Shown here piece by piece: positions 15,260 through 34,331 of a stretch of DNA of 64,000 nt. Within the stretch, counting starts at the first letter, position 1; every line of letters begins with the position of its first letter. The DNA lies in the NCBI GenBank assembly GCA_903911145.1, contig CAIWCD010000018.1, positions 1-64,000 of the forward strand, in the 5' to 3' direction. A program made the translations under genes and the position numbers. This DNA comes from an uncultured delta proteobacterium. Lineage in GTDB: Bacteria; Myxococcota; Myxococcia; Myxococcales; 40CM-4-68-19. The notes beneath the pieces were generated by a model. The model searched no databases. It was given only the letters and a program-made list of their open reading frames with translations, and was not told where the DNA came from.

Positions 15260-15347
15260 GGAGAGGTGGCCGAGCGGCCGAAGGCGCACGCTTGGAAAGC
15301 GTGTATACCGAAAGGTATCGTGGGTTCGAATCCCACCCTCTCCGCCA
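15260..15347 (+). tRNA. tRNA-Ser(GGA)
   Basis: The acceptor GGAGAGG pairs with CCTCTCC, with encoded CCA. The anticodon arm CACGC-TTGGAAA-GCGTG gives GGA (reads UCC/UCU). The class II variable arm TACCGAAAGGTA and the T arm GTGGG-TTCGAAT-CCCAC are shared almost unchanged with the next tRNA-Ser. Confidence 0.97.
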
Positions 15348-15439
15348 ACAAGCGGCGTCACAATCCCGCCAGAAGTGCTTGACGACAGATGCCCGATCGA
15401 TGCAGTGAAGCGCGAACGAAGTGCAGAGCAGGACATTTT

Positions 15440-15527
15440 GGAGAGCTGGCCGAGCGGCTGAAGGCACCTGATTCGAAATCAGGAGTACCGAAAGGTATCG
15501 TGGGTTCGAATCCCACGCTCTCCTCCA
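15440..15527 (+). tRNA. tRNA-Ser(CGA)
   Basis: The acceptor GGAGAGC pairs with GCTCTCC, with encoded CCA. The anticodon arm CCTGA-TTCGAAA-TCAGG gives CGA (reads UCG). The variable and T arms match tRNA-Ser(GGA) 92 bp upstream, so the pair probably arose by duplication. The base before CCA is T, where Ser tRNAs usually have G. Confidence 0.95.
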
Positions 15528-15793
15528 ATCCTCATCATTCAGATTTTCCGCAGGCGCGAATCACGCGCACCGGCAGGGCTTCGCCGCAAGCTCTCGCGCG
15601 TCATCGCGCGTCACCCATTTTCGGGAGCGACGTTGGTCACAGGGGTTTCTCCCATCCGAAGCCAGAAACCTCCCCACTGGACCTGGCTCCTCATCTGGGC
15701 GAAGGTCACGCGCTTGATTTAGCTTTGGCGATAGTTCGGTACTGCGAAGGCACCACTGTTGTCTGCGTGCGTTCGCAAAACAGGGAGCAACCG
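15528..15793 (+). other. Gene-free leader before the giant operon
   Basis: There are 266 bp between tRNA-Ser(CGA) and the ATG at 15794. I see no clear promoter or terminator; only the Shine-Dalgarno site AGGGAG at the 3' end, six bases before the ATG, is convincing. Confidence 0.4.
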
Positions 15794-18700
15794 ATGGCTC
15801 GATGCATGGAAGTGATCAGTGCTGGATATGGGCAGCGCGCGCTGGCTGACGGATGCCGCGGGCCCTCTACGCCAGCGCCACGGAGCACCGGGATTCGCGC
15901 CATCGCCCGCCGGATGGGTCTCCTCGCCGCTGCACTCTGCTTTATCGGCTGGAGTGCTGCCCGCGCGGACCAGAGCGCCAACGGCCGCGTCTTCGAGTTT
16001 GACTGGACCAACCTTGAAGTTGGCTCAGGCGGAAATCCGCGCCCGCTGACGAGTAATAACAACGGCCAGATGGTGCTGATCTATCCCTCCGCGCCTGCCT
16101 GGGTGACGATTCCATTCAACGGCGTCACGAATGGGGATGTTGCATCCTTCAGCTATCAATATGTCCCTGCGCCCGCGGACGGTGGTTCCTATCAGTACAC
16201 GGGTGATATGTTCATCTATTACCAGGAGGATCCGAATCACGGAAATACTCCGACCCGCCTGCTGAACGACCAGTCTCTTCCTTCGTTCGCGTCACCCACC
16301 GGCGCGAACTATACCGATCCGACTGACCTGACGCATCTTTGCAGTCTCCGGATTCTGGTGGACCAGAATTGCAACGTTCCTGCCGCGCTCTATCTCAACG
16401 CCCAGTCGCCGATCTCAAACTACTACAGTTGGTGCGTTGGTTGGAATCAGGACGGCAACTGTATCTACTATAATAGTTCATTTGGTTCGACCCACCAGGA
16501 CACGAGCATCAACGATGTGAGCAACCCGGCCGTTCTCGAGAGCGCGCTTGGTTATGTGGTCGCTCCGGTCAGCGGCGGAATGCCCGTATGTACACTTAAC
16601 CAGAATCACAATGGTTGGACCAACGCCGGGTCATGCGAAGAGTATGTCGCGGGCGAGTTTCTCGTGCAGCCGAATACCCATAACAGCATGGGCGTTCCGG
16701 ATGCCGGTGTCAGCTTCAGCGTCGGCCTCCATTTCGCGACCGGAGAGAATCCATTCTATTACAGCGGGACCGCTGACCTGACTACGGTCGGAAACGAGTG
16801 CTCCTCTACGGTCGTCGTCTCGATGCCCCTCGATGGCGGCGCCTGCACCATGCCGGTCTATACTCCGCCGCCATTGAACGATCAGGAGACGATTCCTCTC
16901 ACGATTACCCTGACCGAACCGACCAGCGGCTGCTCCACCAGCGTCTTCACGCTCCCTGATGGTGGTTCCACCTTCGACGGCGGTTGCCCTGTCATCACCA
17001 ACATCGAGACGTTCATCTCGCTCGGCGACCACGTGCTCCCGCAGAACAGCGGCTCGCAGCAGTGGGGGCAGTATAGAGGAGGATATGCCTGGACGAATAA
17101 TTACAATACCTACCAGCAGGTCGCGCCGGTGATTACCTCCACGCCCACGGCGACGACCGAGAAGATTGATATGTTGGCCTGGGCAGGCACCGGCTATCTC
17201 TATTCGTGCAATTGGAATGGCTGCTGGGCCTCCAATGAGCCGGCTGTCTCGCTTGCATTTCCGGACGGCCGAACAGAGATGATTCAACTTCCGCGCACGG
17301 TATCGGATGGCGGGCCCAACAGCGATCAGAACGTCTGGACGCCTGCCTACCGTGCCGTGGATGGCACGAGCACCGGCGGGCCCGGTTCCGGATTCTTCCC
17401 CAACGGCTCGTACGCCATTACCGACGGTGGAAGCATCTCCGGAGGCAACTATGCGACGTACAAGGGCCAGACTGGCGTCATCAGCGGCCAGATGGACTTC
17501 CAGGGCTGTCTTGCTCCGGGCAATACGCAGAACGGATACTACGTAATCACGTCGTCAATGAGGTCCGCTGGCTCCTTCTCCTTTCCGACCTACTATAGCC
17601 AGCGCTGGATCTATGACACCGACGGGAATGTATATGCTCCGAACGCAGGAGCGGGCTTGTATGTGCCATTCTCCTCCAGCCAGAACGGCGCGTTTGAAGG
17701 AGTCGGTCTCGTCGGATCATACGATAGCCAGGCCGTCGCCTATACAATCACCAAGGGGACCAACCAGGTCGACGGCGGCTTTGTCAGCCAGACGATTGCC
17801 TACGACCTGCCGAACGCTGTCGAGCTGCAGTCGAATTCACCAGCCGACGCGGGCGTGCCGTTAATCGGCTTCGGCAAGCTCAATATTCGCATTGCGGTGA
17901 GAAACGCTTCCGATGTGCCGTTGGAGATCAACAACGCGCAGATCTATAACCAGGGGACGTATCTTCTCGCCGATGGAGGCTACGGCGGCAGCTATCACGG
18001 TTATTCCTATGGAACCGCTGAATTCAGCGATACCAACTATGTGCTGCACGTGCTCGCTCCTGTCGGCACCTATTCGGGAAGCAGCCTCCAGGTCAATATC
18101 CAGGGGTCCACTGGCCAACCGTTCTCGAACTTCAACCCCATTGGCCCGGTCACGATTCTTCCCATCGCCGGGAATGCCTGCGTCTCAAGCTGCGTCGATG
18201 TCAGCAACCCGTCGCAGAGCTGGTTCGACGATGAGCTCGCGCCGGTTCTCTACGTCGATGGCGGCTCGCTCCCCCCCTCGGGCGCGGGCGGCTACTCGGT
18301 CCACGCCGGGAGCAACATCAACATCACGGGAGGCGTGCAATCCTCGTCGCCTGTCGACGTCGTTTCCATTCTCGCGAAGTTCGGTGCGACCACGGAGACG
18401 TTCTCGGTCAGCCCAGCGGTCGACGCCGGTGTCTCCCTCGACGGCGGCATCGAGAAGCTGACGAAGTTCTCGATTCCCGTGCAGGTCGCCTGCGGTGATC
18501 ACAACGTCAACCTTGACCTGACTGTTTCCAACAAGTGCGGAGAGAGCACGAGCCTCGACGCCGGCACGTTCCGCATCATTGGAACGGACAATCCGCCGAC
18601 CTCGATTGATCAGACGACGACGTTCGTCGCTGATCAGGCAAACAGCTACACCGTCACTGCGTCCGACCCTGACCATGATGCGCTGACGTTCGTGCTCGTC

Positions 18701-21700
18701 GCCGCCGACGGAGGACCAACGACTGGTCCGCTCAACGCCGACGGCAGCAGCCACGCCACGCTCGATCCCTCGAGCGGCCTCTTCTCCTGGAATCCTCCGG
18801 CCGATCCCATCGTCAACGGCCACACCACGAACTGCACGCAGCCCGATGGCACCTCAAACGTCATCGGCGTGCCGCACCACCTCTTGTTTACGGCGACCGA
18901 CTTCTGCAGTGAGTCCGTCCAGAAGACGCTCACCGTTCTGGTGGACGGAGACAGCGCTCCCTACCTCGCGCCGATCCCGAGCCAGACCGTCGCGGAGGGC
19001 GCCGCGGCCAGCGTCGATCTTGCGGGAATCGACTACGACACCGCGACCGGCGACAGCATCACCTACAGCTGCACGGGGCTGCCGGCCTGGGCCACGCTCG
19101 ACAACAAGGGCCGGGTCACGATGATGCCCGGCATGACGGTCACCGGAACTTCCGACTCGCAGGAGTTCGTCGCCTTCTGCCAGGCAACAGACTCGTTCGG
19201 TGCTCTCAACTGCGCAGGTCCGCAGGAGCTCGACATCTTCGTCACCAAGACCGGAGTAGCGCCGGTCATCGCCCACCTGGGCGACCTGACAATTCCGGAA
19301 AACCAGCAGGTCGGTTTCACACCCGTGATCACGGATTCGAACGGCGACCCCACCATCCTGACGATGGAGATGACCGATGGGGACGGCACGCATTACACGA
19401 CGACCCATTTCGGTGCGACGCTCTCCGATGGTTCGTTCAGCTGGGTCCCGACCTACCTGCAGGCTGGGGTCTATACGGTGCTCGTGACCGCGACGAAGAA
19501 CGTCACGGATTGCACCGGCGCTTCGGCGGGGCCTGCGTGGTGCGCGACGACGGTGCCGGTCAAGATCACGGTAACGAACGTCAACCGCGCGCCCAAGCTG
19601 GATGCGGTCGCGAATCAATCGACGGTTGAACTCTCCTTGCTCTCGTTCAACCTCGTCGGCCACGATCTCGACATTCCCGTCACGGGCATCAACGCGAGCG
19701 GGCAGTCCTACAGCGACCACCTGGCCTACTCGCCGGTCAGCTACGTCGAGACGCAGGGCAGTTCTGTTCACGCGCCCGTTGTCGGTCTTCCCACCGGGAT
19801 GACGATGACCCAGTCGGCGGCGAATCCCTCCGTCGCCACCTTCAGGTGGACCCCCGCTCTCGGCCAGTGGGGCGATTACGTCCTCACCCTCAAGGTCACC
19901 GACGACCCGGGATTGACGGCCACTGGCGTGGTCAAAATCCACGTCGCCTACTTCAACGAGCCTCCGGTGATCGTCGCCGATCCCCAGGAGCAGGGATTCG
20001 AGGGAAGCTGGATTCACTTCGTGACTGCGGTAACCGACCCGCGCTCGCGCCCTGATGTCTGCACGATGACGGGTCTGCCGAGCGGTTCGGCCTACGACAC
20101 CACGACGAACCAGTTCACCTGGTTGCCGGCGTCGGGGACGAGCCAGAACTCGCCCTACACGGTGACAACACAGTGCTGCAGCGAGGCGCCAGCCGGTGCA
20201 GACGAGTTCAACAAGCCGCTTCCTGCTGCGGACTGCACCACCACGAAGACGCAGATCGACGTGCTGCCCGTCGCGCACGCGCCGGTGCTCGATCCCATCC
20301 CGCTCCAGATCGTCCATGAGGCGAGCCTGCTGACATTCACTGTGACGGCGACCGATCCGGACGGCACTTCCGGACTGACTTTCTCGGCGGCGTCGCTCCC
20401 CGCCGGGGCTATCTTCAACGCCGCGACGCAGGTCTTCAGCTGGACCCCGACCTATACGCAGGCGGGCCAATATGAAGTGACGTTCACGGTCTCAGATGGA
20501 ACGCTGAGCGACAGCAAGCCGGGACGCATCCAGGTGCTCAACACCGATCGCCCTCCGGTCATCGCGACGATTCCGACCGTGGTGGCGACGGTGGATCTGC
20601 CGGTCAGCTTCACCGCGCACGTGACCGATCCCGACAACGACTGGACGACCTGCTCTTTGAGTGGCGCGCCCACCGGCGTCTCGTTCACGCCGGCAAACAA
20701 CCAGGGCAACTGGACGCCGGGCGCGAATGAAGTCGGCACATATCAAGCGACGCTCACCTGCTGCGACCAGCCGGGCTTCCCCGAATCGGCGCCGATGTGC
20801 ACGACCGCCCCGGTCAATTTCGTCGTCAGTCCGGCGGCACCTCCCGGCTCGCTCATCATTGCGCCGGAAGGTCCCTTCACGGTCTATGAAGGCGATGCGG
20901 TCAACTTCCCTGTGCAGGCGACCGAACTCGATGGCGGTGCAGCCGCGCCGCTGACCTGCTCGATCACGCCGCTGCCGACGGGCGCAGTGTTCAACGCGAT
21001 CGCGATGCAATTCTCCTGGACGACGACGTTCGGCCAGGCGGGCAACTACGCAGTCGTGGCGACCTGCAGCGACGGAAAGAATACGGGCAGCATCACGGTG
21101 AAGATCACTGTGCTCAAACAGATCGTCGATCGCGTCGGTGGTGGCATCGCAACGGCGGGCTGCTCGCAGGCCGCGCCCACTTCGCGCAACCTTGCGTTCC
21201 TTCCCTTGCTCGCGATGCTGCTGCTCTGGCCGCGCCGCAAGCGAGCCGCGAACATCGTGCGCAGGTCGTCGATGGTCTCGCTGGCAGCCGCCGGTAGCGC
21301 GCTGCTGATTGCAGGCTGCTCGTCGAGCACCAAGACCGGCTCGCTCTCAGGTGTCGTTGCCCTCGTGGGCGGCGGCGATCAATCGCAGACGCTGGTCAGC
21401 GCAGTCGGCGCTGCTGCGGCCGAGACGCGGACGGATACGAATGGCAAGTACGCGCTCAGCGGGCTGGTCGAGGGAAGCTACGCGTTGGTCGTTGCCGCGC
21501 CGAACACGCTCGAGGGCTCGCTGACGATCTCGGCACAGGTGCGCGCGGGCGCGACCACTGCCGTTCCGCTGCAGACCCTCACGCCGGTTGGCGTCATCGC
21601 GGGCCAGGTGTCGCTCGGTGCCTTGACGGGGAACGCGGGCGTTGTCGTGTCGGTGCCTGGAACTTCGTCGTTGGCGGTGACCGATGATGCCGGCAACTAC

Positions 21701-24700
21701 CAGCTCAACCTTGTGCCGGCCGGCAGTCAGACGGTGGTCGCGGCCCGCGCTGGACGTGGCTCGGCCACTGCGACGGTCGCGGTCGTGCGCGGCCAGGTGG
21801 TGCAGGCCCCGCTCCTCAACCTGGTCGGGTCGGCGGGCGGCGGAACCGCCAGCATCAAGGGCAAGGTCATCCTCGATGGCCAGGCGGCTCCGCAGGGAGT
21901 TCCCGTCGGTCTCTCCGGAAACTCGCCGAGCGGCACCACGACCGATGCCACTGGAGCCTTCAGCTTCACCAATCTCGCCTCGGGCCAGTACACGGTTGTC
22001 GTGGCGATTCCGTCCGCTGCGCCGGCCGTCCAGAGCGCCACGGTGCAGCTCGCCGCGGGCGCGACGTCGACTCTTCCAGATATGCACTTCACGCCGCTTG
22101 GTACGATCAACGGCAGCGCGATTCTGCTCGGTGCCGCCGCAAGCAACGGCATCGCGATCTCCTCGCCCGGTGCGGTTGGAATCGCGCTCACGGACGTGGC
22201 AGGCAACTACTCGCTGCAGGGCGTTCCCGCGGGTGCGCGCCAGGTAACCGCGACCTATCCGGGCCGCGCAATCGGCACCGCGAGCGTCGTGGTTCCGTGG
22301 GACGGTTCGGTGACGGCGGCGCAGATGTCACTCTCCCCGCAGGCGGCGGGCGGACAGATCAACGGCACGGTGTCGATCTCCACCGCGGCCGACGCTGGTG
22401 GCGTGAAGCTGTCACTTGCTGGAACTGTGGGCGGTGCCCAGGTCAGTGCAGCCAATGGCTCATTCACGTTTGCCCAACTCCCCGACGGCCTCTATGCAGT
22501 CACCGCAGTGGCCAGCAACACCGTCGAGGCGCAGCAGACTCTCTCCGTGGGCATCCAGGACGGCGGCGTTTCCACGCTGCCGATCTCCTTCACTGGCGCG
22601 GGAGCGATCGCCGGTCTGGTCACGCTCAACGGGCAGCCCGCAGCGGGCGCATCCGTCTACGTCTCGGGCGGGTCGGGGTCGGCAGTCACCGACTCCTCGG
22701 GGCACTATCAAATCTCATCGTTGCCCGCGGGACAGGGCTACAGCCTGACGGCCGCGACTGCCGGCTATCTCTCTGCTGCGGTGTCCGTCGGAACTGTTGG
22801 ATATGCCCAGACGCTGCAGGCGGCGACGCTTGTGCTGCGTCCTGAAGGTGCAAGCGCGACGGTCTCTGGTGCTGCGACCGTGGTTGGGTTTGGCGCAAAG
22901 CCCGGGATCAACGCGACGGTCGACGGGCCGGTCGTTGCTTCCGTCGGCACCGACAGCGACGGCGGCTTCTCCCTCGCCGTGACCCCCGGCGTCTACGAGT
23001 TGACGCTGGCGCTCCCGTTCGACGGGGGCAGCGGCTACGAGGCGAAGATCCCCAACGTGGTCGCACTCGCGGGAACCAACGGAACCTTCTTCGACGACGG
23101 GTCTGCCTGGTCTCTTCCCAACCCGATCGAGCTCCAGTGGGGTCACCAGTTGACCGCCGGAGACAACATCCTTCCCTCAGACGCGGACCCGACGACACAC
23201 GATCTCGCTGCGCTTCTGGACTCAGACTGCACGGTCGCCACGAACGACATCTATGGAACGTGCACTGGAACTCCCGCTCTGATCTCGGGAGGCGTCGGGC
23301 AGCGTTTTGCGTTCAACGATGTGCCCACCGCGGGCCTCGGGATCGGACCGCGCCAAGGCGCCGGGCAGCAGCACTCGATCTGGTTCCTGACCGGAATCAG
23401 CCTCGACCAGTCCATCGCGGGTTCCGGATCTCAGACCGGTACGAACACAGCAACCATGATGATCGGAACGTCTGATGGCACTGCGACGAAGATCGCTGAC
23501 ATCGGCCTGTACGCGAACAGCGGCAGCTGCCTCAAGTGCGGAGTGATCAACAGCACTGCCTACGCACCGCAGGTAGAAGCCGCAGGGCAGGGGTTGGTGT
23601 TCACCTCCGTGGAGTCAGACGGAACGCACTTGATCTACGCCGACGTCTCCAGCGCGCAGCCGAGAGTGGCCAACCTCGGCCTCCTGCAGATGGACCGGGC
23701 TGCGGCCGGCTCGTCCGCGACGGCCACGTTCTATCTCGCTCCGAACGGTAAGGTTGTCTGGTTCCGCAGCGGCGCCAGCGGAGACCTCGTGGTCGGCCCG
23801 ACAGCGGCACGTTCAAGCTCGGCTCCGGTCACCGACGTTGAAACGCAGGTGACAGGTGGAATCGACGACAGCACGTTCTTCCAGTTCTCCGCGGATGCCA
23901 CCACGGTCGCCTTTGTAGACGCCAACGGTTGCTCCATTCCGTTGACCGATGGCCAGGGCAACGACGCAGGAACCACCCAGCCGAGTGGCTGCGCAGGACT
24001 CTGGACGGCTGCCGCCGATGGTACGCAGCTTCAGGAAGTCATTCCATATGTTCTCGGCGGCAAGTTGGGACTGTTCAGCCCTGCAGACAGCAGCGCCCAA
24101 CTGCTCGGTGCGCCGGCCTATGGAGTCGATGGTGCCACTACATTCCTGGAACTTGTGGTCGCTCCGTTTGTTGCCGGATCTCAGACCCAGAGGATCCTGT
24201 TCAGCTCTGAGCCCTTCGGGGGGCTGGTTGGTGGCGTCGGACTGTACGGTTCGAAGATCTACGCCGCGTTTCCAAACACGGATGGTGGATCATTTACTCT
24301 TGTTGGTGGCCAGCCAACTCTGACCAGTTCACTGTCTGAGATCTCAGACTCGGCAATCGACTGGCTCGTCTCTGATGATGGCGACACAGTCTTCTATCGA
24401 TATGCGGCGGGAACGGATGGGGGCGCGGCTGGAGGAGGGACGCCGCTCGGTGCCCGCTTCGAGGGATCTGCTGCGGTTGCAACCGTGGCCTCTGACGGCG
24501 GAATCCACCAGACGCAGATCGTGTCGGACGGCACCGCCCTCAGGGTCGCGGCGATCGCGGTCAATGGCGCCTCGATCTACGCGGACTATTCGCAGCAGCG
24601 GAAGAACACGGGGAAGGCCCTCCCGCACGGAAGCCTGTTCCAGACACCCAGTGCATGGAATACCAAAGCCGCCGCGGTTGCATACTCAAGCCTGGACGCA

Positions 24701-25621
24701 GCCGGCTTCCACCTGCGCGTCTCGACGCTGGATGGAACGTCTCAGACTGAGGTCGCCTCTCTGGGCACGGATGGAGGGCTCGAGCAGCTCAAGCAGTTGG
24801 AGGAGGTCATCGCGGGAGGGCGCGGGTTCGCGCTCATGTCTCCTGACTCCAACGAGGTTGTCTGGTCGACGACTGGTGTCGATCTCAACCTTGGACTCGC
24901 GGCTCCATCGGCTCCCTATGGTCTGCTCGCGGACCCTTCGGCCCAGATGATTCCTGTTACTGCCCAGAAGATCACGACTGACGCTCTTGGTTTTCTGGTC
25001 GATGGTCGACTCGTGGGAGAGAGCAGCGTTCCAAACCCGGATGGTGGCGGGACCGAGTTTGTCATCGGCGTTGCCACCACTGGAAGTTCTGGAGTGGACG
25101 CGGGCACGATCCGCACAGGGAACACGCTCATCTCCTTCGCGCCGCTGGGCGATGGCGTCTTCTATGACGGTCTCGACACCAACACGGGTCTCCTCGGCGC
25201 ATACCGGTTTGTCTCGGGCGCGACCCAGGACGAACTGATCGCCCTCGGTGTGACGGGCGCCGCAGTCTCTCCGGATGGAGAGAGAATTCTGGTTGCAGGG
25301 ACCGCAGCCGGTCCCTCTCTCCCGGACACTGTTTCCTCAGGTGCGAATCTACTCATCGAGGCGGCGGCCAGCGGCCCCCCAGCACGCATTCTGATGGACT
25401 TCCTCGTCTCTCAGATCTCAGCCCAGTCTCAGGCCAGGCAAAGCATCGCTGCTCAGGGAGCGACCGCCGCAGCACCTGCACAATCCAGCAACGTGGTCGG
25501 CTACTACAGTCAACTCAACGGCGCGATCTGGGCCGGGAAGTCGACCTATTACGGCCTGCGCGCAGGCAACCGGGCTCCACTCAACTTCCAGGACGGTCTC
25601 TACACAGGAGTTGTTCCATGA
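15794..25621 (+). CDS. Giant exported Ig-repeat protein fused in frame to a lipoprotein
   Basis: A 3,275-residue frame with a good ribosome-binding site (AGGGAG) at 15794; an earlier start would run through tRNA-Ser(CGA). A signal-type hydrophobic stretch lies at about 41-58. Residues about 925-1770 contain eight cadherin/He_PIG-like Ig repeats (APVLDPIPLQIV..., FSWTPTYTQAGQYEVTFTVSDG-type). A MYXO-CTERM-like segment follows at about 1780-1820, then at M1827 a second lipoprotein signal with the acylated Cys at 1842. The remaining 1,449 residues (from 21272) match the length and layout of the next two genes: carboxypeptidase-regulatory-like Ig repeats, then beta-propeller-like sequence. It may be two genes whose stop was lost, or a true fusion. 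Function unknown; outer-surface role inferred. Confidence 0.8.
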   Translation: MARCMEVISAGYGQRALADGCRGPSTPAPRSTGIRAIARRMGLLAAALCFIGWSAARADQSANGRVFEFDWTNLEVGSGGNPRPLTSNNNGQMVLIYPSAPAWVTIPFNGVTNGDVASFSYQYVPAPADGGSYQYTGDMFIYYQEDPNHGNTPTRLLNDQSLPSFASPTGANYTDPTDLTHLCSLRILVDQNCNVPAALYLNAQSPISNYYSWCVGWNQDGNCIYYNSSFGSTHQDTSINDVSNPAVLESALGYVVAPVSGGMPVCTLNQNHNGWTNAGSCEEYVAGEFLVQPNTHNSMGVPDAGVSFSVGLHFATGENPFYYSGTADLTTVGNECSSTVVVSMPLDGGACTMPVYTPPPLNDQETIPLTITLTEPTSGCSTSVFTLPDGGSTFDGGCPVITNIETFISLGDHVLPQNSGSQQWGQYRGGYAWTNNYNTYQQVAPVITSTPTATTEKIDMLAWAGTGYLYSCNWNGCWASNEPAVSLAFPDGRTEMIQLPRTVSDGGPNSDQNVWTPAYRAVDGTSTGGPGSGFFPNGSYAITDGGSISGGNYATYKGQTGVISGQMDFQGCLAPGNTQNGYYVITSSMRSAGSFSFPTYYSQRWIYDTDGNVYAPNAGAGLYVPFSSSQNGAFEGVGLVGSYDSQAVAYTITKGTNQVDGGFVSQTIAYDLPNAVELQSNSPADAGVPLIGFGKLNIRIAVRNASDVPLEINNAQIYNQGTYLLADGGYGGSYHGYSYGTAEFSDTNYVLHVLAPVGTYSGSSLQVNIQGSTGQPFSNFNPIGPVTILPIAGNACVSSCVDVSNPSQSWFDDELAPVLYVDGGSLPPSGAGGYSVHAGSNINITGGVQSSSPVDVVSILAKFGATTETFSVSPAVDAGVSLDGGIEKLTKFSIPVQVACGDHNVNLDLTVSNKCGESTSLDAGTFRIIGTDNPPTSIDQTTTFVADQANSYTVTASDPDHDALTFVLVAADGGPTTGPLNADGSSHATLDPSSGLFSWNPPADPIVNGHTTNCTQPDGTSNVIGVPHHLLFTATDFCSESVQKTLTVLVDGDSAPYLAPIPSQTVAEGAAASVDLAGIDYDTATGDSITYSCTGLPAWATLDNKGRVTMMPGMTVTGTSDSQEFVAFCQATDSFGALNCAGPQELDIFVTKTGVAPVIAHLGDLTIPENQQVGFTPVITDSNGDPTILTMEMTDGDGTHYTTTHFGATLSDGSFSWVPTYLQAGVYTVLVTATKNVTDCTGASAGPAWCATTVPVKITVTNVNRAPKLDAVANQSTVELSLLSFNLVGHDLDIPVTGINASGQSYSDHLAYSPVSYVETQGSSVHAPVVGLPTGMTMTQSAANPSVATFRWTPALGQWGDYVLTLKVTDDPGLTATGVVKIHVAYFNEPPVIVADPQEQGFEGSWIHFVTAVTDPRSRPDVCTMTGLPSGSAYDTTTNQFTWLPASGTSQNSPYTVTTQCCSEAPAGADEFNKPLPAADCTTTKTQIDVLPVAHAPVLDPIPLQIVHEASLLTFTVTATDPDGTSGLTFSAASLPAGAIFNAATQVFSWTPTYTQAGQYEVTFTVSDGTLSDSKPGRIQVLNTDRPPVIATIPTVVATVDLPVSFTAHVTDPDNDWTTCSLSGAPTGVSFTPANNQGNWTPGANEVGTYQATLTCCDQPGFPESAPMCTTAPVNFVVSPAAPPGSLIIAPEGPFTVYEGDAVNFPVQATELDGGAAAPLTCSITPLPTGAVFNAIAMQFSWTTTFGQAGNYAVVATCSDGKNTGSITVKITVLKQIVDRVGGGIATAGCSQAAPTSRNLAFLPLLAMLLLWPRRKRAANIVRRSSMVSLAAAGSALLIAGCSSSTKTGSLSGVVALVGGGDQSQTLVSAVGAAAAETRTDTNGKYALSGLVEGSYALVVAAPNTLEGSLTISAQVRAGATTAVPLQTLTPVGVIAGQVSLGALTGNAGVVVSVPGTSSLAVTDDAGNYQLNLVPAGSQTVVAARAGRGSATATVAVVRGQVVQAPLLNLVGSAGGGTASIKGKVILDGQAAPQGVPVGLSGNSPSGTTTDATGAFSFTNLASGQYTVVVAIPSAAPAVQSATVQLAAGATSTLPDMHFTPLGTINGSAILLGAAASNGIAISSPGAVGIALTDVAGNYSLQGVPAGARQVTATYPGRAIGTASVVVPWDGSVTAAQMSLSPQAAGGQINGTVSISTAADAGGVKLSLAGTVGGAQVSAANGSFTFAQLPDGLYAVTAVASNTVEAQQTLSVGIQDGGVSTLPISFTGAGAIAGLVTLNGQPAAGASVYVSGGSGSAVTDSSGHYQISSLPAGQGYSLTAATAGYLSAAVSVGTVGYAQTLQAATLVLRPEGASATVSGAATVVGFGAKPGINATVDGPVVASVGTDSDGGFSLAVTPGVYELTLALPFDGGSGYEAKIPNVVALAGTNGTFFDDGSAWSLPNPIELQWGHQLTAGDNILPSDADPTTHDLAALLDSDCTVATNDIYGTCTGTPALISGGVGQRFAFNDVPTAGLGIGPRQGAGQQHSIWFLTGISLDQSIAGSGSQTGTNTATMMIGTSDGTATKIADIGLYANSGSCLKCGVINSTAYAPQVEAAGQGLVFTSVESDGTHLIYADVSSAQPRVANLGLLQMDRAAAGSSATATFYLAPNGKVVWFRSGASGDLVVGPTAARSSSAPVTDVETQVTGGIDDSTFFQFSADATTVAFVDANGCSIPLTDGQGNDAGTTQPSGCAGLWTAAADGTQLQEVIPYVLGGKLGLFSPADSSAQLLGAPAYGVDGATTFLELVVAPFVAGSQTQRILFSSEPFGGLVGGVGLYGSKIYAAFPNTDGGSFTLVGGQPTLTSSLSEISDSAIDWLVSDDGDTVFYRYAAGTDGGAAGGGTPLGARFEGSAAVATVASDGGIHQTQIVSDGTALRVAAIAVNGASIYADYSQQRKNTGKALPHGSLFQTPSAWNTKAAAVAYSSLDAAGFHLRVSTLDGTSQTEVASLGTDGGLEQLKQLEEVIAGGRGFALMSPDSNEVVWSTTGVDLNLGLAAPSAPYGLLADPSAQMIPVTAQKITTDALGFLVDGRLVGESSVPNPDGGGTEFVIGVATTGSSGVDAGTIRTGNTLISFAPLGDGVFYDGLDTNTGLLGAYRFVSGATQDELIALGVTGAAVSPDGERILVAGTAAGPSLPDTVSSGANLLIEAAASGPPARILMDFLVSQISAQSQARQSIAAQGATAAAPAQSSNVVGYYSQLNGAIWAGKSTYYGLRAGNRAPLNFQDGLYTGVVP
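21130..21319 (+). other. Internal MYXO-CTERM segment followed by internal lipobox
   Basis: The coding sequence reads AGCSQ, then a hydrophobic stretch (LAFLPLLAMLLLW) and PRRKR: the Gly-Cys, transmembrane and Arg-rich layout of MYXO-CTERM sorting tails, which normally end a protein. Eight residues later comes ATG 21272 and MVSLAAAGSALLIAGCSSS, a textbook lipoprotein signal. A weak AGG lies about ten bases before this ATG. No in-frame stop separates them. Confidence 0.75.
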
Positions 25622-28600
25622 TGGGCCGCTCCAGTCTGATTCTTGCGATGCTCTGCGCCCTTGCGGGCTGCACCAGCGCGCCAATTCCCATCTACTCGGG
25701 AAGCATCTCCGGACATGCCACGTACAAGGATGGTGGCGACTCGTCTGGAATCGTCGTCACCGTCTATGGCCCGGCCAGCGGGGCGGCGTTGACCGATGCC
25801 AATGGCAGTTGGTCGATCGCTGGCCTTCCTGCGGGAAGCTATGTGGTCAGCGCAGTTGCGCCCGCGGGCCTTGAGCCCTTCCTCGAAACGAACGTCGAGG
25901 TCTCCTCGGGCGCGGTCGTCGCGCCTGCGCTCTCCTTCACCGGCGTTGGCGCGATTTCGGGAAACGTCGCGATCGGAAGCACCGGCGTGCCTGGAGCCAT
26001 CGTCATCATCGCCGGGACGGGTTTCGTCGCCGCCACCGACGCTTCGGGCAACTTCCTGCTGCGCGGTCTGATTGCCGGGACCTATGACCTTGTTGCGTCG
26101 CTCGGCGGCGCTGCGGGTGCGACCCGGACGGGCGTCGTGGTTGTGCACGGCCAGACGACGCAGGCGCCGCAGTTGTCTCTCTCTCCTGCTCCGGTCGGCG
26201 GAACCACAATCTCCGGTTCGCTCTCCATTGTCGGGGTTTCGCCGCAGCAGGGTCTTCCCGTCTCGCTCCAGGGGCCGACCTCCTCCGCCGCCATCACCGC
26301 AGCTGACGGTTCGTTCGTCTTCAATGGCGTGATCGATGGCCAGTACACGGTCGCGGCGCAGGTTCGCTCGACGTTGCCCAACATGCAGACCCAGGCTGTC
26401 ACTGTGACCGGCGGCCAGTCTGTCTCGGGCGTCTCTCTGTCGTTCGCCCCCGTCGGCATCGTGCGAGGCAAGGCGGTTCTATCGGCGCACGCGACGGCGA
26501 ACGCGGGCATCGCGGTGACGGCGCAGGGAACGGCCTCGTCGTCGGTCACCGACCAGCTCGGTCGCTACCAACTCGCGAATGTGCCTGCGACCCAGATGGC
26601 CAAGATCCAGGCGTCGATCATCGGCGGCGGAACTGCATCGACGCAGGTCGCGGTGCTCTGGAACCAGGAGGTCGTTGCCCCGGATCTCGATCTGTCGAGC
26701 TCGATCATCTATCCGACTGGCGAGATCAGCGGGACGGCGCTCTTTGCGAGCAGTGAAGACAACTCAGGGATCACCGTGACGCTGCGGGGCCCCACCGAGA
26801 CGATGCAGGTGACGGGCACCGACGGCGCCTTCGATTTCATCCACGTCGAGCCGGGGAACTACCTCATCACTGCGTCGGCGACGGGCACGCGCGAGGGCAG
26901 CAAGTCGCTTTCTGTGACGCTCGGTGCGACGGCGATTTCCGCTCTCTCGCTGTCGTTGACTCCGCAGGCCGAACTGCGCGGCTACGTGACTGAGCAGGAC
27001 GGCACGCCGAAGCCGTCGGCGCTGGTGTTCCTCAACGGCGGCTCCGCGAGCGCGGTCTCCGCTGTCGACGGTTCTTACATCCTGCGAGGCGTTCCGGTCG
27101 GTATCGCGTTGGCCGTCCAGGCCAGCACGGCCTCAGAGCTCTCGCAGCTGCAGGCGGTCGCTCCTCTCGCACGCGGAGATGAGGGGCACCCTGCGACTCT
27201 CATTCTGACTGCTCACGGACAGGCCGCTCTCTTGACTGGCCGCGCCCTCGACACGGATGGAACTCCCGCCGCGCTCGCCCAGCTCGATGCCGTTGGCACA
27301 GGGCTCGCCAGTGTCGCTGCTGCTGCTGACAGCTCCGGCGCCTTCTCGTTCTCTGCCGCTGAAGGAATCTACTCGCTGAGCATCACCGCTGCGGACGGCT
27401 CGCACGAGTCGATCCCGGTTGCGTCGCTGCCTGGCTCGACCGGGCTGGTCTGGGGCGGCGCGCTTCCCGGTGCGATCGGCACGGTCGAACTGCAGGGGGC
27501 GACGCGCATCGCCGCGTCTGCGAAGGGCGCCGCGATCATCGGGCGAGCCTCGACCTATCTCGATCCGACCATCAGCGGGACCAACGATGCCCTCATCATC
27601 AGCAACTACGCGGCCTACTCCACACCTGCGACGATTGCGAATGGGCCGACTGGCATCGGTGAGGGAACGCTGTGGCTCGAGAGCGGAGGCGTCGCGGTCC
27701 GCCTTCCGAGCGCTGGCGTCTTCATCGAGGACAACAGCTGTGGCCTGTCGACGGCACTGCAGGGCACACAGCAGCCCTCGCCGGTGATTGGTCCGTCGCA
27801 TACCGCGCTCTACTCGCTCCCTGTCCTGCCGGGGACGGCCGGGCCGCTCGAGATCGGGCGCAGCGACGGCAAGGTCGTCGAGGCTTTCGGTCCTCTGGTT
27901 GAGAACAAGCAGGCTGCACCGGCAAGCCCTGGAAGCTGCCGGTGCACCATTAAACCGGTAGTCTGCACCTGCTCTGGCGCGAGCTCCGGCATCACCGCGC
28001 CAATCGCCAGCGGAGGCTCCACGGTCGTGTATCTCGGCTGGGAGAGTTCAATTGACGTCGAGGACGGCGGGATCGCGCTCGACCAGCTCTACTCGTTCAA
28101 TATCAACGATGCGCTCGGCGATGGCGTGCCGATGCCTGTGCAGGTCACCTGTCAGAACGACCTGGGCGCATCGCCGATCTTCGTCTCTCCGGATGGCCTC
28201 TGGGTCTGGTACAGCGCGAACGGATCGATCGCGGTCGCATCGACGAGCGGGGTTGACCTCGACGGCGGCTGCCCAAGCCCCGTGCTGCTCAAGCCGTCGG
28301 GCGGTGGCAAGGCGAGCGGCGCGGTCAACGCCGACGCCAAGGTGATCGACGTCTCTGCCGACGGCACGTCGGTCCTCCTCTGCGCCGCTCCTGGTACGCA
28401 GGCGGGGAGCACGAAGGTCACCTGCGGCGACATCCTGCTCGCCAGCGCCGACGGGACGATCGTCACCGATCTGCACAGCGGGAACTTCGAAGAGCTCTCG
28501 ACCTCCAGCGACGGCAAGAAGTACATCGTCTACGACGACAGCTCGCGTACCAACTTCGCTGGCGAGGCGATCATCGCGAGGGAGTTCTCGGCGCTGGCGC

Positions 28601-30006
28601 CTCGCTCGGCGGTGCTTTTTTCCGCCAAGCTGATCTGCGACTGGCAGGTGATGACCGATGGAACGGGAATCGTCGGTTGGGCCGCCACTGACGACGCGTG
28701 CAAGCAGGCGTCGGGCAACGGTGGCCTTCGTCCGACGGTGATCGCGGGCTTGCCTCTCAACTTCGCGGATGGCGATGTGTCGGGGCAGGCGGTCGACTCG
28801 GCCGGATTCAACTGCGTTGCGCCGGTCAGCGGCACCAAGGTCGCGTATGCGGTCACGACCGTCTATGGACCGGAGGGGGCCTCCACTACCACCAGCGCAC
28901 TGAACCTCTCCGACTACTCCGCTGGCGCAGTGGGCGAAACCGTTGTGCTCGATGATGGCACCTCGGTCGCTGGCGGAGTCATCGGATGCGGCGCGGGCCA
29001 GCAGACCAGCGCGAGCACGTTTGTGCCGAGCGGGGACCGCGTCGCCTGGGTTGGGGGAACTCCGCACGCCTCCGGCAGCGGTTACTTCACGCTCAGCGTT
29101 GCCAACGCATCGCAGTCGATCGCGAACAAGGCTCCGGCCATCACCGCGACACTGGCGCTCCCGCAGGTCTCCACCGACTGCTCCCTGATTTCGAGCGGGC
29201 AGAACAACAATCTGTTGCTCTCGGGAGAGGACGGCAGCCCGCTCATCGTGCGCGCATCGGCGGACGGGTCGACCAGCCTGGCGATCTCGTGTGGGCTCGC
29301 CGCCACCCCGTCGGTCGGGAGCGTGACCGAGTTGGCCAACGACGGCTCGCGCTCCGGTACCCAGCCCACCGGGGTCTCCGCACAGATGAACTTCATGCTT
29401 GCCGATGGCACGCTGGCGTTCCTCAATGTCGACCCGACGACCAAGGCGGCCGCGATGTACACGGCAAGCCTCACGACGAGCACGTTGCAGCTCGCCGCGA
29501 TCCCTGGGGCAGCCGGCACTCCAAGTTCTGCATTCGTCGGTGCGGGAGCAAGCAGCATCGCCCTCCTCATGGTTCCCGCGTCGACGGTCACGACGAGCTA
29601 CGGAGTTCTGGGAAATCTCGTCTACCTCGGAGCCAAGGCAAGCTCGTTCGTTGCCGGCACCAACGTGCTCGTTCCAGGCAGCGGCGTATCGCAAGGCAGC
29701 AGCTGCACGCCCGAAAAAACGACGGGCGCACTCCCTGGCACGCTCGAGGTTTCGGCCGACGGAAAGTACCTGCTGTTCCACTCTGACGTCATCGGCTCGC
29801 CCGTGCAGATCTACGAGCAGCAGGAGATGTCGGGCGTGCTCAAGACGATGCGGATGAGCGACGGCGCGGTCCATTCGCTCGTCGGCCGCTCGGCGCAAGG
29901 CACATTCCTGCCGGACAACTCAATCCTGGGCGTTCGACAGCACTCGCCCGATACGTACTCGTTCCAAGACGGCGTCTACTTCTCGGCGCCCTGGGTGCAG
30001 CCATGA
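25618..30006 (+). CDS. Large lipoprotein: Ig-like repeats plus beta-propeller (paralogue 2)
   Basis: A 1,462-residue lipoprotein. The signal MMGRSSLILAMLCALAGCTS ends in a lipobox (LAGC). About the first 500 residues hold five or six carboxypeptidase-regulatory-like repeats of the form SGxVxxVxxLxDGQYTVAA. The remaining 900 or so look like blades of a beta-propeller (SPDGLWVWYSA, SADGKYLLFHS). The ATG at 25618 overlaps the previous stop (ATGA) and has AGGAG upstream. It ends in FQDGVYFSAPW, matching the ends of both sister proteins. Probably outer-membrane anchored and facing out; the ligand or partner is unknown. Confidence 0.82.
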   Translation: MMGRSSLILAMLCALAGCTSAPIPIYSGSISGHATYKDGGDSSGIVVTVYGPASGAALTDANGSWSIAGLPAGSYVVSAVAPAGLEPFLETNVEVSSGAVVAPALSFTGVGAISGNVAIGSTGVPGAIVIIAGTGFVAATDASGNFLLRGLIAGTYDLVASLGGAAGATRTGVVVVHGQTTQAPQLSLSPAPVGGTTISGSLSIVGVSPQQGLPVSLQGPTSSAAITAADGSFVFNGVIDGQYTVAAQVRSTLPNMQTQAVTVTGGQSVSGVSLSFAPVGIVRGKAVLSAHATANAGIAVTAQGTASSSVTDQLGRYQLANVPATQMAKIQASIIGGGTASTQVAVLWNQEVVAPDLDLSSSIIYPTGEISGTALFASSEDNSGITVTLRGPTETMQVTGTDGAFDFIHVEPGNYLITASATGTREGSKSLSVTLGATAISALSLSLTPQAELRGYVTEQDGTPKPSALVFLNGGSASAVSAVDGSYILRGVPVGIALAVQASTASELSQLQAVAPLARGDEGHPATLILTAHGQAALLTGRALDTDGTPAALAQLDAVGTGLASVAAAADSSGAFSFSAAEGIYSLSITAADGSHESIPVASLPGSTGLVWGGALPGAIGTVELQGATRIAASAKGAAIIGRASTYLDPTISGTNDALIISNYAAYSTPATIANGPTGIGEGTLWLESGGVAVRLPSAGVFIEDNSCGLSTALQGTQQPSPVIGPSHTALYSLPVLPGTAGPLEIGRSDGKVVEAFGPLVENKQAAPASPGSCRCTIKPVVCTCSGASSGITAPIASGGSTVVYLGWESSIDVEDGGIALDQLYSFNINDALGDGVPMPVQVTCQNDLGASPIFVSPDGLWVWYSANGSIAVASTSGVDLDGGCPSPVLLKPSGGGKASGAVNADAKVIDVSADGTSVLLCAAPGTQAGSTKVTCGDILLASADGTIVTDLHSGNFEELSTSSDGKKYIVYDDSSRTNFAGEAIIAREFSALAPRSAVLFSAKLICDWQVMTDGTGIVGWAATDDACKQASGNGGLRPTVIAGLPLNFADGDVSGQAVDSAGFNCVAPVSGTKVAYAVTTVYGPEGASTTTSALNLSDYSAGAVGETVVLDDGTSVAGGVIGCGAGQQTSASTFVPSGDRVAWVGGTPHASGSGYFTLSVANASQSIANKAPAITATLALPQVSTDCSLISSGQNNNLLLSGEDGSPLIVRASADGSTSLAISCGLAATPSVGSVTELANDGSRSGTQPTGVSAQMNFMLADGTLAFLNVDPTTKAAAMYTASLTTSTLQLAAIPGAAGTPSSAFVGAGASSIALLMVPASTVTTSYGVLGNLVYLGAKASSFVAGTNVLVPGSGVSQGSSCTPEKTTGALPGTLEVSADGKYLLFHSDVIGSPVQIYEQQEMSGVLKTMRMSDGAVHSLVGRSAQGTFLPDNSILGVRQHSPDTYSFQDGVYFSAPWVQP

Positions 30007-33000
30007 GGACCACTGTGGTCAATCGGATTGTCTGGTCGGCGCTGCCGTTCGCGGCGCTGCTCGTTGCAGGTTGCGCGGGGAGCAAGACGGAGCCCGCGAC
30101 CGGAACGCTGACGGGCAAGGCGATCTACGCCAATGAGAGCGACTCGAGCGGCATCTCGGTCGCACTCGATGGGCCTGTGCACCAGAGCGCGCTGACGGCG
30201 GCCGACGGAACCTATACGTTCCAGAGTCTGCCTGCGGGAAGCTACGCGCTGCTCTTCACTCCCACCGCGGCGCAGGAGCGTCCGCAGATCCGCACCGCGT
30301 CCGTCTCCGCCACTCCGGGGAGCACGGTCGCGAACGTCGTCTTCACGGCGATCGGCGCGCTGAGCGGTACCGCTACGTTCGGGTCCACCACGGGCAACAG
30401 CGGCATCCTCGTTGTCTCTCCCGGAAGCGCGGCTGTCGCGGTGACGGACGATGCAGGCAACTTCACTCTGCGCGGGCTCCCGACCGGAACGGTCGATGTC
30501 ATCGCCAGCGCTCCGGGCTTTGCTTCTGCGAGCGATCACGCAGTGGCGGTCGTCCACAACACGACGCAGCCCGCGCCGGCGTTGACTCTGCAGGCCGGTT
30601 CGGCGGGAATCGGCGCGATCACGGGTCAGGTCATTCTCGCGGGCATGTCGGCGCAGGCGGGTATTCCGGTCACGCTGCAAGGAATCAACTCGTCGGCCGC
30701 TGTCCTCACTGATGCGACCGGCGCGATCACCTTCACGGGCCTTCCTGATGGCCAGTACGCGCTGACCGCGATCGTCCACGATGCGCTCCGCGTCTCGGAA
30801 ACGCTTGCCGTGCAGGTTCTCGGAGGGCAGCAACTCTCGTCGCCGCAGTTCCATTTCACGCCGACCGGACTCGTCTCCGGCATCGCCACGTTGCAGGGGG
30901 CGACCGCAGGCAACGCGGGGATTACGACCACCGCGCTTGGCGCGCCGTCCGTGACAGTGACGAATGACAGCGGCGCCTATTTGTTGCTGGCCGTTCCCGT
31001 GGGCAGCTTCAACATCGTCGCCTCCTACCCCGATCGTCAGAGTGCGGTGACCTCCGCGCCTGTGCAGGTCGCGTGGGGGCAGACCACGACCGCGCCTGCG
31101 TTGACGCTTGGCCCGCCACTCGACGCGATCGGCCAGGTGCAGGGGACGGTCACGCTCACTGGCCTCTCCGACGCGCATGGCATCATCGTCACGCTCTCGG
31201 GCGCGACGCCGGGCGTGTACATCACAGGCAACAGCGGTGGATTCACCTTCAAGAATCTCGTCGCGGGCAACTACACGTTGACTGCCTCGGCGCTCTCGAC
31301 GGCAGAGAGCACGGCGACGATCGGGTTCACGATCTCCGCGGCCGCCCCCTTTGTCGCCGGCGCGAATTTCACCTTCACGCCCGTCGGGTCTGCGCAAGGC
31401 AAGGTCGCAAACCAGCAAGGGGCGTCCGTGGCGGGCGCGCTCGTGGTTGCCCAGGGGACGAGTCGGAGCACGCTCAGCGATACGAGCGGTAACTTCCTTC
31501 TCAGTGGGATTCCCGCGGGACCGGCTGCGGTGCTCTCCGCAAGCGTGGTTGGCAGTGAATCGGCTCCCGTGTCGGTTGCCATCACCTACGCACCGCAAGC
31601 GCCATCCATTGCAGACGCGGGCACGCTCACGCTCTCGAACGTCGTCCAGGCCAACGTCGCCATCGCAGGTCAATTCTCGCTCTACGGCGGCCCGTTCGGC
31701 ACGACGCCCGATCCGTCGAAGCTCACGGTGAACTGGACTGGCGCGGCCGCCGGATCGACGAAGGTCGACAGTTCCGGTGCATGGAATGCGGTGACTCCCG
31801 TTGGCTTCTACTCGCTCTCGGTCGGCGAGGATGATGCGCTCAGGAGCGCGACGATTCCGAACGCGCTGGCGATGTCGGGTGGCGAGGGATTCGTGGTCGC
31901 GGATCAGCTCTATCCTCTCGCCTCTCCGCTTGAGCTTGAGTACGGGACGCAGGTCGTGAGTGGCCAGAAGGTCTCGCCGATTCTGACCGACCCTCGCTAT
32001 CTGGGGAACGCCATTTTCACGGTAAGCTACGGCACGGTCGCAGTGAACCAGCCGCGGCAGGCGGAGGGGACGCTTGCACTGTTTCACAATCACCATGTGA
32101 CGCTGGTTCCGGGAGCTGTTCCCGACATCGGCAACAGTGCGGCGACCGGGAAGGAGATGCAGGTCGCCGCGGCCGGCACGCTTCCAGAGATGCAAATCGG
32201 CCCGCAGGGCTCGGCGGTCTACCTGGAGAACGGCATGGCGAACCTCGCCCTCGCCGATGGGAGCATCCATCCTCTCGGAATTCAGGTGACCGACCCGAAC
32301 TCAGGTGCGCCGCCGGGTCGTCTGAGCCCGTTCCAGCTCAACGGCAATGTGGCCTCCGGTGGGAACGTAATTGCGATCATCGGCATGAACCAGGGCGCTG
32401 GCGCCTGTGCTTCCGATCGGTTCAACGGGAACTCTCTCTATCCGGTCTATGCGGTCAACGTGACTACCCCCTCCTCGGTCAAGCTCGTCGGATGCGCAAC
32501 CAATGCCAACGACGGAACCCGCTCGCTGTTTGTTTCTCCGGACGGACTTGGCGTCTGGATCGAGTGGACGGGAAATGGGAATGGTCTGGTCGACACGGTG
32601 GTGCAGAGCAATTGCGACCTGAACGATCAGAACAGCGACTGCCCGGCAAATAATATCGGCGGCGATTACAACAACAGCACTGGATTGAACCTCTACTTCT
32701 CCTCTGACGGCTCGGCTGTCGTGATGAGTTCCCAGTCGGGCGTGTTGCTGGCGTCCTCGGATGGGACGTCGCTGACCGAACTGACTAACAATGTTGGTAC
32801 GCAGCCTGCCAACGATTCGTTCACCGTCTATCCGGCCCAGTTCGCGGGAACCGCCGTGGATGTGCTGGAAGTTGACGTGAGCGGGGCGCTGCAGAACTAC
32901 GGTTGCTGCTACACCACGAGCATGTATCTGATGCCGTTCCAGGCCGCGGCGGGCCTGCCGGGCGAGCCAACGGCCCAGACGTCGGAATATCCCGGCATCA

Positions 33001-34331
33001 GCAGCGCAAACTGGCCGTTCCAGAACTTCAATCAGAACAATCAAAGATCGGGTGGAGTGGTGATTGCGCCACAGGCCCCCTGGTATGCACCGTCGCATCT
33101 CGCCTACACGGTCGGTGGATATCCGGCGTCGGACGGCACGGTCGTCGCGGTTTCGTTCTCCGACGTCGTTACCGGCTCGACCACGGGCAAGACGTTGTCG
33201 ACCACCGCGAACGTAAACCTCGGTCAAGCGCAGATGCTGACGGTCAATGGGAACGATTATGTCCTGTTCCTCGATCAGCAGTCTGATGGAGGGTCTTCGA
33301 CAACGGTGCTGGAAGAGTACTCTTTCACGGCGGGAGGAGCAGCGACGCCGATCGCCTCCGACGTAACTCAGATGATGACGCAGCAAAGCCAATGGTTCTA
33401 CGGAAACGTCGCAGCGCCGAACTGGATCGGCTGGGCGACCAGCGGAGGAGAGGCCTCTGTTTACCCGCTGTGTTTCGCCACGCGCATCGATGTCCCAAGC
33501 TCTCCGATCGTGAGCCTCGGGCCGTGCCAGCCGGGTTATTCAATGACGTTCAGCGACGATGGAAAGGTTGTCTTGTTCACGCAGCCTGCGGCGCTGACGG
33601 GAGCGAACAATGACGTTCCTGCGCTCGCGGATCTCTCCACGACCAGTCCCGTTCCGGTGCCGATCGTCGTCGATGGGCTCGACTACATCTCGACTGACAC
33701 GCAGGCCTTCCTTTCCGACGATCGCATCGCTCTCTCGGGTTGGAACCAGAACGAAACGCTCGGCGAGTCGCTCGTGGTCGGACTCGATGCAAACGCTCCT
33801 GGCGGTTTTTCCCTGTTGACCCTCGCCAACCACAACTATGGCGCTGATGTAGCCAACAATTGGGGAGACATGCCTGCGCAGAAGCTGGGCGGACTCGTGC
33901 GGTGGAGCATGAACCAGGTCCCCTCGCGGCAGACGGCCTGGGGCCTGTTCGATGTTGAGATCCTGGCGGCGGGCTCAACACACCCAATCGATCTGGGTAC
34001 GCTGTCGATGAACCTGAATGCGCGTGAGAGCAAGTTCCCGTTCAAGCTCGCACTGCTCGCGGATGGCTCGAATCTGATGCTGATGCGTGCAGGCGTAGAG
34101 GGCGTAACGGACCCTGACACGGGCGTCGGCTCGCTGGTCGCGGCAAGCACGAGTGGATGGGCCGTGCACATGCTCTCGCATGCGAGCGACAGTTACGCCA
34201 TCGTTCCGGGCACGATGGAGATTCTCGGTACGCAGCAACGCACGCAGGCGCCTTGGGGAATGCAGGACGGCGTGTACGTGCTCGCTTCACCGCCAGCGCC
34301 GGCGGTTCGGTCGGCGCAGGCGCGTCGATAG
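30003..34331 (+). CDS. Large lipoprotein: Ig-like repeats plus beta-propeller (paralogue 3)
   Basis: A 1,442-residue sister of the preceding gene, coupled to it by ATGA at 30003-30006. The signal (SALPFAALLVAGCAGS) carries a lipobox. The amino-terminal part has about six regulatory-like Ig repeats (LTGKAIYANESDSSGISVAL, then DGTYTFQSLPAGSYALL) and the carboxy-terminal part has propeller-like segments (FVSPDGLGVWIEW, FSDDGKVVLFTQPA). It ends with MQDGVYVLAS. Compared with its sisters it has more Asn/Tyr-rich propeller loops around residues 850-1050. The three paralogues presumably form one surface assembly; function unknown. Confidence 0.82.
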   Translation: MRTTVVNRIVWSALPFAALLVAGCAGSKTEPATGTLTGKAIYANESDSSGISVALDGPVHQSALTAADGTYTFQSLPAGSYALLFTPTAAQERPQIRTASVSATPGSTVANVVFTAIGALSGTATFGSTTGNSGILVVSPGSAAVAVTDDAGNFTLRGLPTGTVDVIASAPGFASASDHAVAVVHNTTQPAPALTLQAGSAGIGAITGQVILAGMSAQAGIPVTLQGINSSAAVLTDATGAITFTGLPDGQYALTAIVHDALRVSETLAVQVLGGQQLSSPQFHFTPTGLVSGIATLQGATAGNAGITTTALGAPSVTVTNDSGAYLLLAVPVGSFNIVASYPDRQSAVTSAPVQVAWGQTTTAPALTLGPPLDAIGQVQGTVTLTGLSDAHGIIVTLSGATPGVYITGNSGGFTFKNLVAGNYTLTASALSTAESTATIGFTISAAAPFVAGANFTFTPVGSAQGKVANQQGASVAGALVVAQGTSRSTLSDTSGNFLLSGIPAGPAAVLSASVVGSESAPVSVAITYAPQAPSIADAGTLTLSNVVQANVAIAGQFSLYGGPFGTTPDPSKLTVNWTGAAAGSTKVDSSGAWNAVTPVGFYSLSVGEDDALRSATIPNALAMSGGEGFVVADQLYPLASPLELEYGTQVVSGQKVSPILTDPRYLGNAIFTVSYGTVAVNQPRQAEGTLALFHNHHVTLVPGAVPDIGNSAATGKEMQVAAAGTLPEMQIGPQGSAVYLENGMANLALADGSIHPLGIQVTDPNSGAPPGRLSPFQLNGNVASGGNVIAIIGMNQGAGACASDRFNGNSLYPVYAVNVTTPSSVKLVGCATNANDGTRSLFVSPDGLGVWIEWTGNGNGLVDTVVQSNCDLNDQNSDCPANNIGGDYNNSTGLNLYFSSDGSAVVMSSQSGVLLASSDGTSLTELTNNVGTQPANDSFTVYPAQFAGTAVDVLEVDVSGALQNYGCCYTTSMYLMPFQAAAGLPGEPTAQTSEYPGISSANWPFQNFNQNNQRSGGVVIAPQAPWYAPSHLAYTVGGYPASDGTVVAVSFSDVVTGSTTGKTLSTTANVNLGQAQMLTVNGNDYVLFLDQQSDGGSSTTVLEEYSFTAGGAATPIASDVTQMMTQQSQWFYGNVAAPNWIGWATSGGEASVYPLCFATRIDVPSSPIVSLGPCQPGYSMTFSDDGKVVLFTQPAALTGANNDVPALADLSTTSPVPVPIVVDGLDYISTDTQAFLSDDRIALSGWNQNETLGESLVVGLDANAPGGFSLLTLANHNYGADVANNWGDMPAQKLGGLVRWSMNQVPSRQTAWGLFDVEILAAGSTHPIDLGTLSMNLNARESKFPFKLALLADGSNLMLMRAGVEGVTDPDTGVGSLVAASTSGWAVHMLSHASDSYAIVPGTMEILGTQQRTQAPWGMQDGVYVLASPPAPAVRSAQARR

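Follow-up and report, generated by a model that had tools for sequence, protein, structure and literature searches.

A MYXO-CTERM-type sorting tail followed by a lipoprotein signal inside one open reading frame of an uncultured member of the Myxococcota

The fused gene and its neighbors

The + strand of the window (the whole 64,000-nt stretch of contig CAIWCD010000018.1 that was analyzed) holds a frame at 15389-25621 that is free of stops. The first ATG of this ORF (15389) is unlikely to serve as the start because an ORF counted from it takes in a tRNA-Ser gene. Two tRNA-Ser genes, at 15260-15347 and 15440-15527 (anticodons GGA and CGA), are found directly upstream of the fused gene, the latter being the one within the ORF. 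The ATG at 15794 is preceded by the SD-like stretch CAGGGAGC (-6.9 kcal) and is likely the start of a gene that runs to the stop at 25621 and encodes 3,275 aa. Two secreted proteins are joined in this single frame (15794-25621). The original prediction had placed a MYXO-CTERM-type tail and a lipoprotein signal inside one open frame of 3,275 residues, and the unbroken translation from ATG 15794 bears this out.

The first half carries an apparent Sec-type export signal (MGLLAAALCFIGWSAARA, 15914-15967, recognized by inspection of the translation) and an Ig-like repeat region (He_PIG / Big_9 in Pfam), the C-terminal part of which spans 20276-21100 and is kept in the congener described below. Six CarboxypepD_reg repeats (Pfam) and a C-terminal domain of unknown fold make up the second half (21317-25618). 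The AlphaFold2 model of this C-terminal domain was not usable (mean pLDDT 30.4), and a Pfam search gave no OmpA match in the second half. Counted from ATG 21272, this part measures 1,449 aa. It shares about 35% identity with its homologues, the two genes that come next (1,462 and 1,442 aa), which had been said to match it in size and layout.

These two genes encode free-standing lipoprotein paralogues of the second half. The first (25618-30006, + strand) shares 4 nt (ATGA) with the end of the fused gene, at its stop, and the second (30003-34331, + strand) overlaps the preceding paralogue in the same way. The ATGA overlaps at 25618 and 30003 thus join three tandem CarboxypepD-repeat lipoprotein units, of which the first is the adhesin-fused one, an arrangement that suggests translational coupling. 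An adhesin paralogue in the same genome (C30) has a stop 9 codons after its RRRR, so that both halves belong to types of protein that also occur on their own. In the three other MYXO-CTERM tails of this genome that were examined, the stop comes 2-11 codons after the Arg cluster.

The junction and its counterpart in the congener

The tail of the first half reads GGGIATAGCSQAAPTSRNLAFLPLLAMLLLWPRRKR. Its sorting segment at 21131-21244 (RVGGGIATAGCSQAAPTSRNLAFLPLLAMLLLWPRRKR) contains all three MYXO-CTERM parts: the RVGGGIATAGCS motif with the invariant Cys (21161-21163) in the Gly-rich GGGIATAGCS, the hydrophobic helix NLAFLPLLAMLLLW (21191-21229; peak mean hydropathy 2.49), and RRKR at 21233-21244. 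The NCBIfam profile TIGR03901 matched it over positions 5-33 of 34 with 15.0 bits (E 0.024) and did not reach the curated cut-off of 20 bits; by profile, the tail is a sub-threshold MYXO-CTERM member. It is also not C-terminal, as more than 1,400 in-frame residues follow.

The linker AANIVRRSS (21245-21271), a predicted cytoplasmic turn with an in-frame GTG at 21257, leads from RRKR to ATG 21272. The internal lipoprotein signal (21257-21319) reads VRRSSMVSLAAAGSALLIAG up to the lipobox Cys (21317-21319). It conforms to PROSITE PS51257 in the stretch MVSLAAAGSALLIAG plus Cys (GSALLIAGC with RR upstream), and both its position and its Cys are kept in the congener. The signal had been described as perfect and as lying 8 residues beyond the tail; the fit to PS51257 holds, and the gap to ATG 21272 is nine residues. 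It lies inside the open frame, and the in-frame GTG and ATG before its lipobox show SD pairing at background level. The statement that no forward frame stops nearby did not hold up, since TAG 21295 and TGA 21306 lie in the other two frames. A frameshift reading of the junction was rejected: the other forward frames stop at these codons, and the junction reads through without any change of frame. AlphaFold2 models of the junction (two sequences, mean pLDDT 50.9) were not usable.

The congener (G001, MAG SZAS-2, a separate draft assembly) was the one further member of the genus available for comparison. On its contig JAFEBC010000241.1 the orthologue is likewise joined in frame, with 42% identity over the aligned region. 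Here ERAGGGIATGCSTDPQSTNTAWVGVLALLVMWPRRR is followed, after a linker 18 alignment columns longer, by MGSLVLLHGC, the lipobox LLHGC being non-canonical at -2. The two genes agree fully in the Cys of the MYXO-CTERM tail, in the RR cluster and in the lipobox Cys, and the helix is conserved as well. Comparison with an orthologue had been proposed as a check for a stop before the equivalent of ATG 21272, and the congener has none there. In the congener too, an overlapping lipoprotein paralogue follows the fused gene. The adhesin/CarboxypepD-lipoprotein fusion is carried by these two genomes only; a contig scan for relatives added the same congener contig and, from other phyla, distantly similar Ig-repeat proteins, and nothing else.

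Roughly 300 codons past the junction, the congener gene has an in-frame TAG (GGC TAG CCC; L035 complement ~6301-6303, G001:C230), beyond which a homologous frame of 964 codons continues. This TAG is either a draft error, a point nonsense mutation or a sign of decay. Another internal MYXO-CTERM fusion of the congener, distinct from this one, has a signal of the SPase-I type (L125, G001:C575).

Internal sorting tails across the Myxococcota

To estimate how often such tails stay open, we sampled 70 MYXO-CTERM matches from the order without choosing for fusion. A stop follows within 0-23 codons in 66 of the 70 and at 49 codons in one, and three stay open. Among the 30 best loci the stop came within 0-7 codons in 28 and two were open, while the 40 further matches gave 38 stops within 0-23 codons, the one at 49 and one open tail. 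All three open tails run into a second export signal. Since most tails stop soon and every open one meets a further signal, the tail-to-signal junction is more than chance.

A profile of four junctions was searched against 195 Myxococcota genomes, and the type of the second signal was assigned by inspection. An internal MYXO-CTERM followed by a second export signal was found in several unrelated families. Lipobox-type fusions occur in G059, G047, G055 and G132, the last (from another family of the phylum) being a third protein with an internal MYXO-CTERM and a lipobox. SPase-I-type fusions occur in G001, G003, G017, G056, G093, G102, G140 and G158, and less certainly in G032. At L126 (G017), L229 (G029) and L134 (G032) the internal MYXO-CTERM is followed by an in-frame hydrophobic SPase-I-type signal.

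The second fused family with a lipobox is a MopE-motif protein with an internal MYXO-CTERM, a lipobox and TIG domains (Pfam). All 16 orthologues that cover both halves are fused, and they come from three families of the order. In 14 of the 16 there is no ATG, GTG or TTG 15 codons or more ahead of the lipobox Cys, in a count confined to the linker, downstream of the first helix. Therefore, no separately started lipoprotein with a full signal could arise from that stretch in these 14. Both cleavage cysteines are kept in all lipobox-type fusions listed.

In a further family, a large adhesin is combined with an OmpA-type protein. Its 28 loci (L172-L199) comprise 13 fused and 15 split ones, and the tree requires four changes between the two states, at least three of them on well-supported branches. 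The split relatives read RRRSRHASH, a stop and then PARHPLSRMDFTLRTQARSWALAALISSIAPNALAQ, whereas the sequence of fused L178 is RRRSRTRARSWALAALIASIAPNALAQ, which retains the core of the signal peptide but has no stop, spacer or start. Fused L189 independently shows the same absence, with the signal core kept. These loci are likely orthologues of MXAN_5598 of Myxococcus xanthus, as judged from domain order and not from the M. xanthus sequence itself.

Proposed processing of the junction and comparison with known systems

The genome of the window encodes a myxosortase homologue (G000:C13) that scored 100.1 bits with Mrt_core (cut-off 100) and 159 bits with the MrtX model, below that model's cut-off of 180. 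Two LspA-type signal peptidase II genes (L202 and L203; G000:C34 and C28) are also present. We consider it probable, at roughly two in three, that the window gene encodes a secreted polyprotein whose back-to-back signals would form a membrane hairpin, to be released by myxosortase and signal peptidase II. Ribosomes would finish the Ig-repeat adhesin and carry on, without terminating, into the lipoprotein with its CarboxypepD repeats. Sec would export the adhesin half until the MYXO-CTERM helix halts in the inner membrane, oriented out-to-in with RRKR in the cytoplasm, and the lipoprotein signal would re-enter the membrane as a second, in-to-out helix and set off export of the second half. The two helices would form a hairpin with a basic cytoplasmic loop. 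Myxosortase would then cut on the periplasmic side of the first helix and free the adhesin for surface anchoring, and Lgt and signal peptidase II would act on Cys 21317-21319 and free the lipid-anchored second protein. One translation event could in this way yield two differently anchored surface proteins at 1:1. The hairpin topology, both cleavages and the 1:1 stoichiometry at the window junction are what we infer from these signals. Of the earlier readings, the best supported is the one in which processing of the junction would leave one half at the cell surface and the other anchored by lipid, because the arrangement recurs in unrelated families whose second half lacks its own start codon. 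In favor of the polyprotein are the unbroken frame and its conservation in the congener, the stand-alone paralogues of both halves, the recurrence in unrelated families and the myxosortase and LspA genes. The sub-threshold score of the tail, the in-frame starts before the lipobox, the non-canonical lipobox and the TAG of the congener gene, and the small number of carriers weigh against it.

For the window gene, unlike most MopE/TIG members, internal initiation is a live rival, since in-frame GTG and ATG codons exist there and the congener has a strong SD. The lipoprotein would then be made mainly from GTG 21257 or ATG 21272, as a nested gene, and read-through would be a by-product. The GTG is 20 codons and the ATG 15 codons upstream of the lipobox Cys, and a start at the GTG would yield the textbook signal MRRSSMVSL.... 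The congener has a GTG 23 codons upstream of its Cys, with an SD energy of -8.6 kcal, in the top 1% of background. Unlike most MopE/TIG fusions, the two genes keep such in-frame starts. The SD energies at the window junction, however, are no better than background (-3.4 kcal for GTG 21257 and -3.8 kcal for ATG 21272, with 45 and 36% of background internal codons as strong), and most MopE/TIG fusions manage without a usable start, so the architecture needs none. We therefore regard nested genes as unlikely for the window. A single giant protein that stays uncleaved, with both hydrophobic segments as a permanent membrane hairpin tying two exported domains together, seems less likely again. The conserved frame in the congener and the MopE/TIG family, fused throughout, would fit it, but the retention of both cleavage cysteines would not, and the free halves in paralogues and the fused/split interchange in the MXAN_5598-like family fit two independent products better.

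Sequencing error was a further proposal, and the draft state of the genome (53 contigs) could be held to favor a faulty assembly or a stop codon lost only very recently. The separately assembled congener has the same fused frame with an in-frame linker of a different length, and the same arrangement occurs in unrelated families. The fusion at 42% identity thus refutes both, unless the two assemblies share independent errors, and we give this explanation hardly any weight. The related idea of a two-gene chimera that arose when a stop was lost keeps its value as history, as both halves have stand-alone paralogues, but not as a recent event, given that the congener gene is fused. Comparison with the relatives shows that the joined chains are real and recurrent and not sequencing mistakes.

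Returning to the processed polyprotein, we lean, by a small margin of confidence, toward a wider reading in which recurrent secreted polyproteins of the Myxococcota use an internal tail plus lipoprotein signal as a cleavable membrane hinge. Such a hinge would give 1:1 products from one start, and for the second protein of the MopE/TIG family it may be the sole route. Export signals in bacteria are taken as marks of protein ends. In several unrelated families, however, two such signals adjoin each other in mid-chain, and in some cases the second protein lacks a start codon. Fused and split orthologues provide a natural series for testing myxosortase and signal peptidase II on internal sites. 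As a warning for annotation, "C-terminal" sorting tails and "N-terminal" lipoprotein signals may be overlooked within long ORFs. In the literature searched, which included few subscription journals, we found neither bacterial polyproteins with signal peptides nor the lipobox variant, and nothing on its repeated occurrence in unrelated families, on missing start codons or on the alternation of fused and split genes.

One internal MYXO-CTERM fusion is already published. MXAN_5598 was proposed by its authors to be processed at the internal motif, and such internal cases were called rare and MXAN_5598 atypical (PMC11980579). The window gene resembles it in that a large adhesin with an internal MYXO-CTERM, here sub-threshold by profile, continues in the same frame into another exported protein. 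It differs in the second half, which in MXAN_5598 is an outer membrane beta-barrel/OmpA protein with an SPase-I-type signal and in the window a lipobox lipoprotein with carboxypeptidase-regulatory-like repeats and no OmpA match in Pfam. Cleavage of terminal MYXO-CTERM segments by MrtX is experimentally established (PMC11980579). With the MrtX-processed TraA-type proteins, the window tail shares the Cys motif, the transmembrane helix and the Arg cluster, and a myxosortase homologue is encoded in the genome; unlike those tails, it is not C-terminal, has the next export signal 9 residues on and scores below the HMM cut-off. Bacterial lipoproteins handled by Lgt and LspA likewise have the PS51257 lipobox; in addition, two lipoprotein paralogues follow the fused gene immediately and the genome encodes LspA. 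The signal of such lipoproteins is at the N-terminus, and that of the window gene lies within a longer open frame. In TraA/TraB, as in the window, a MYXO-CTERM surface protein is followed by a partner envelope protein; TraA and TraB are separate overlapping ORFs (PMC11980579), whereas the two parts of the window gene share one unbroken frame.
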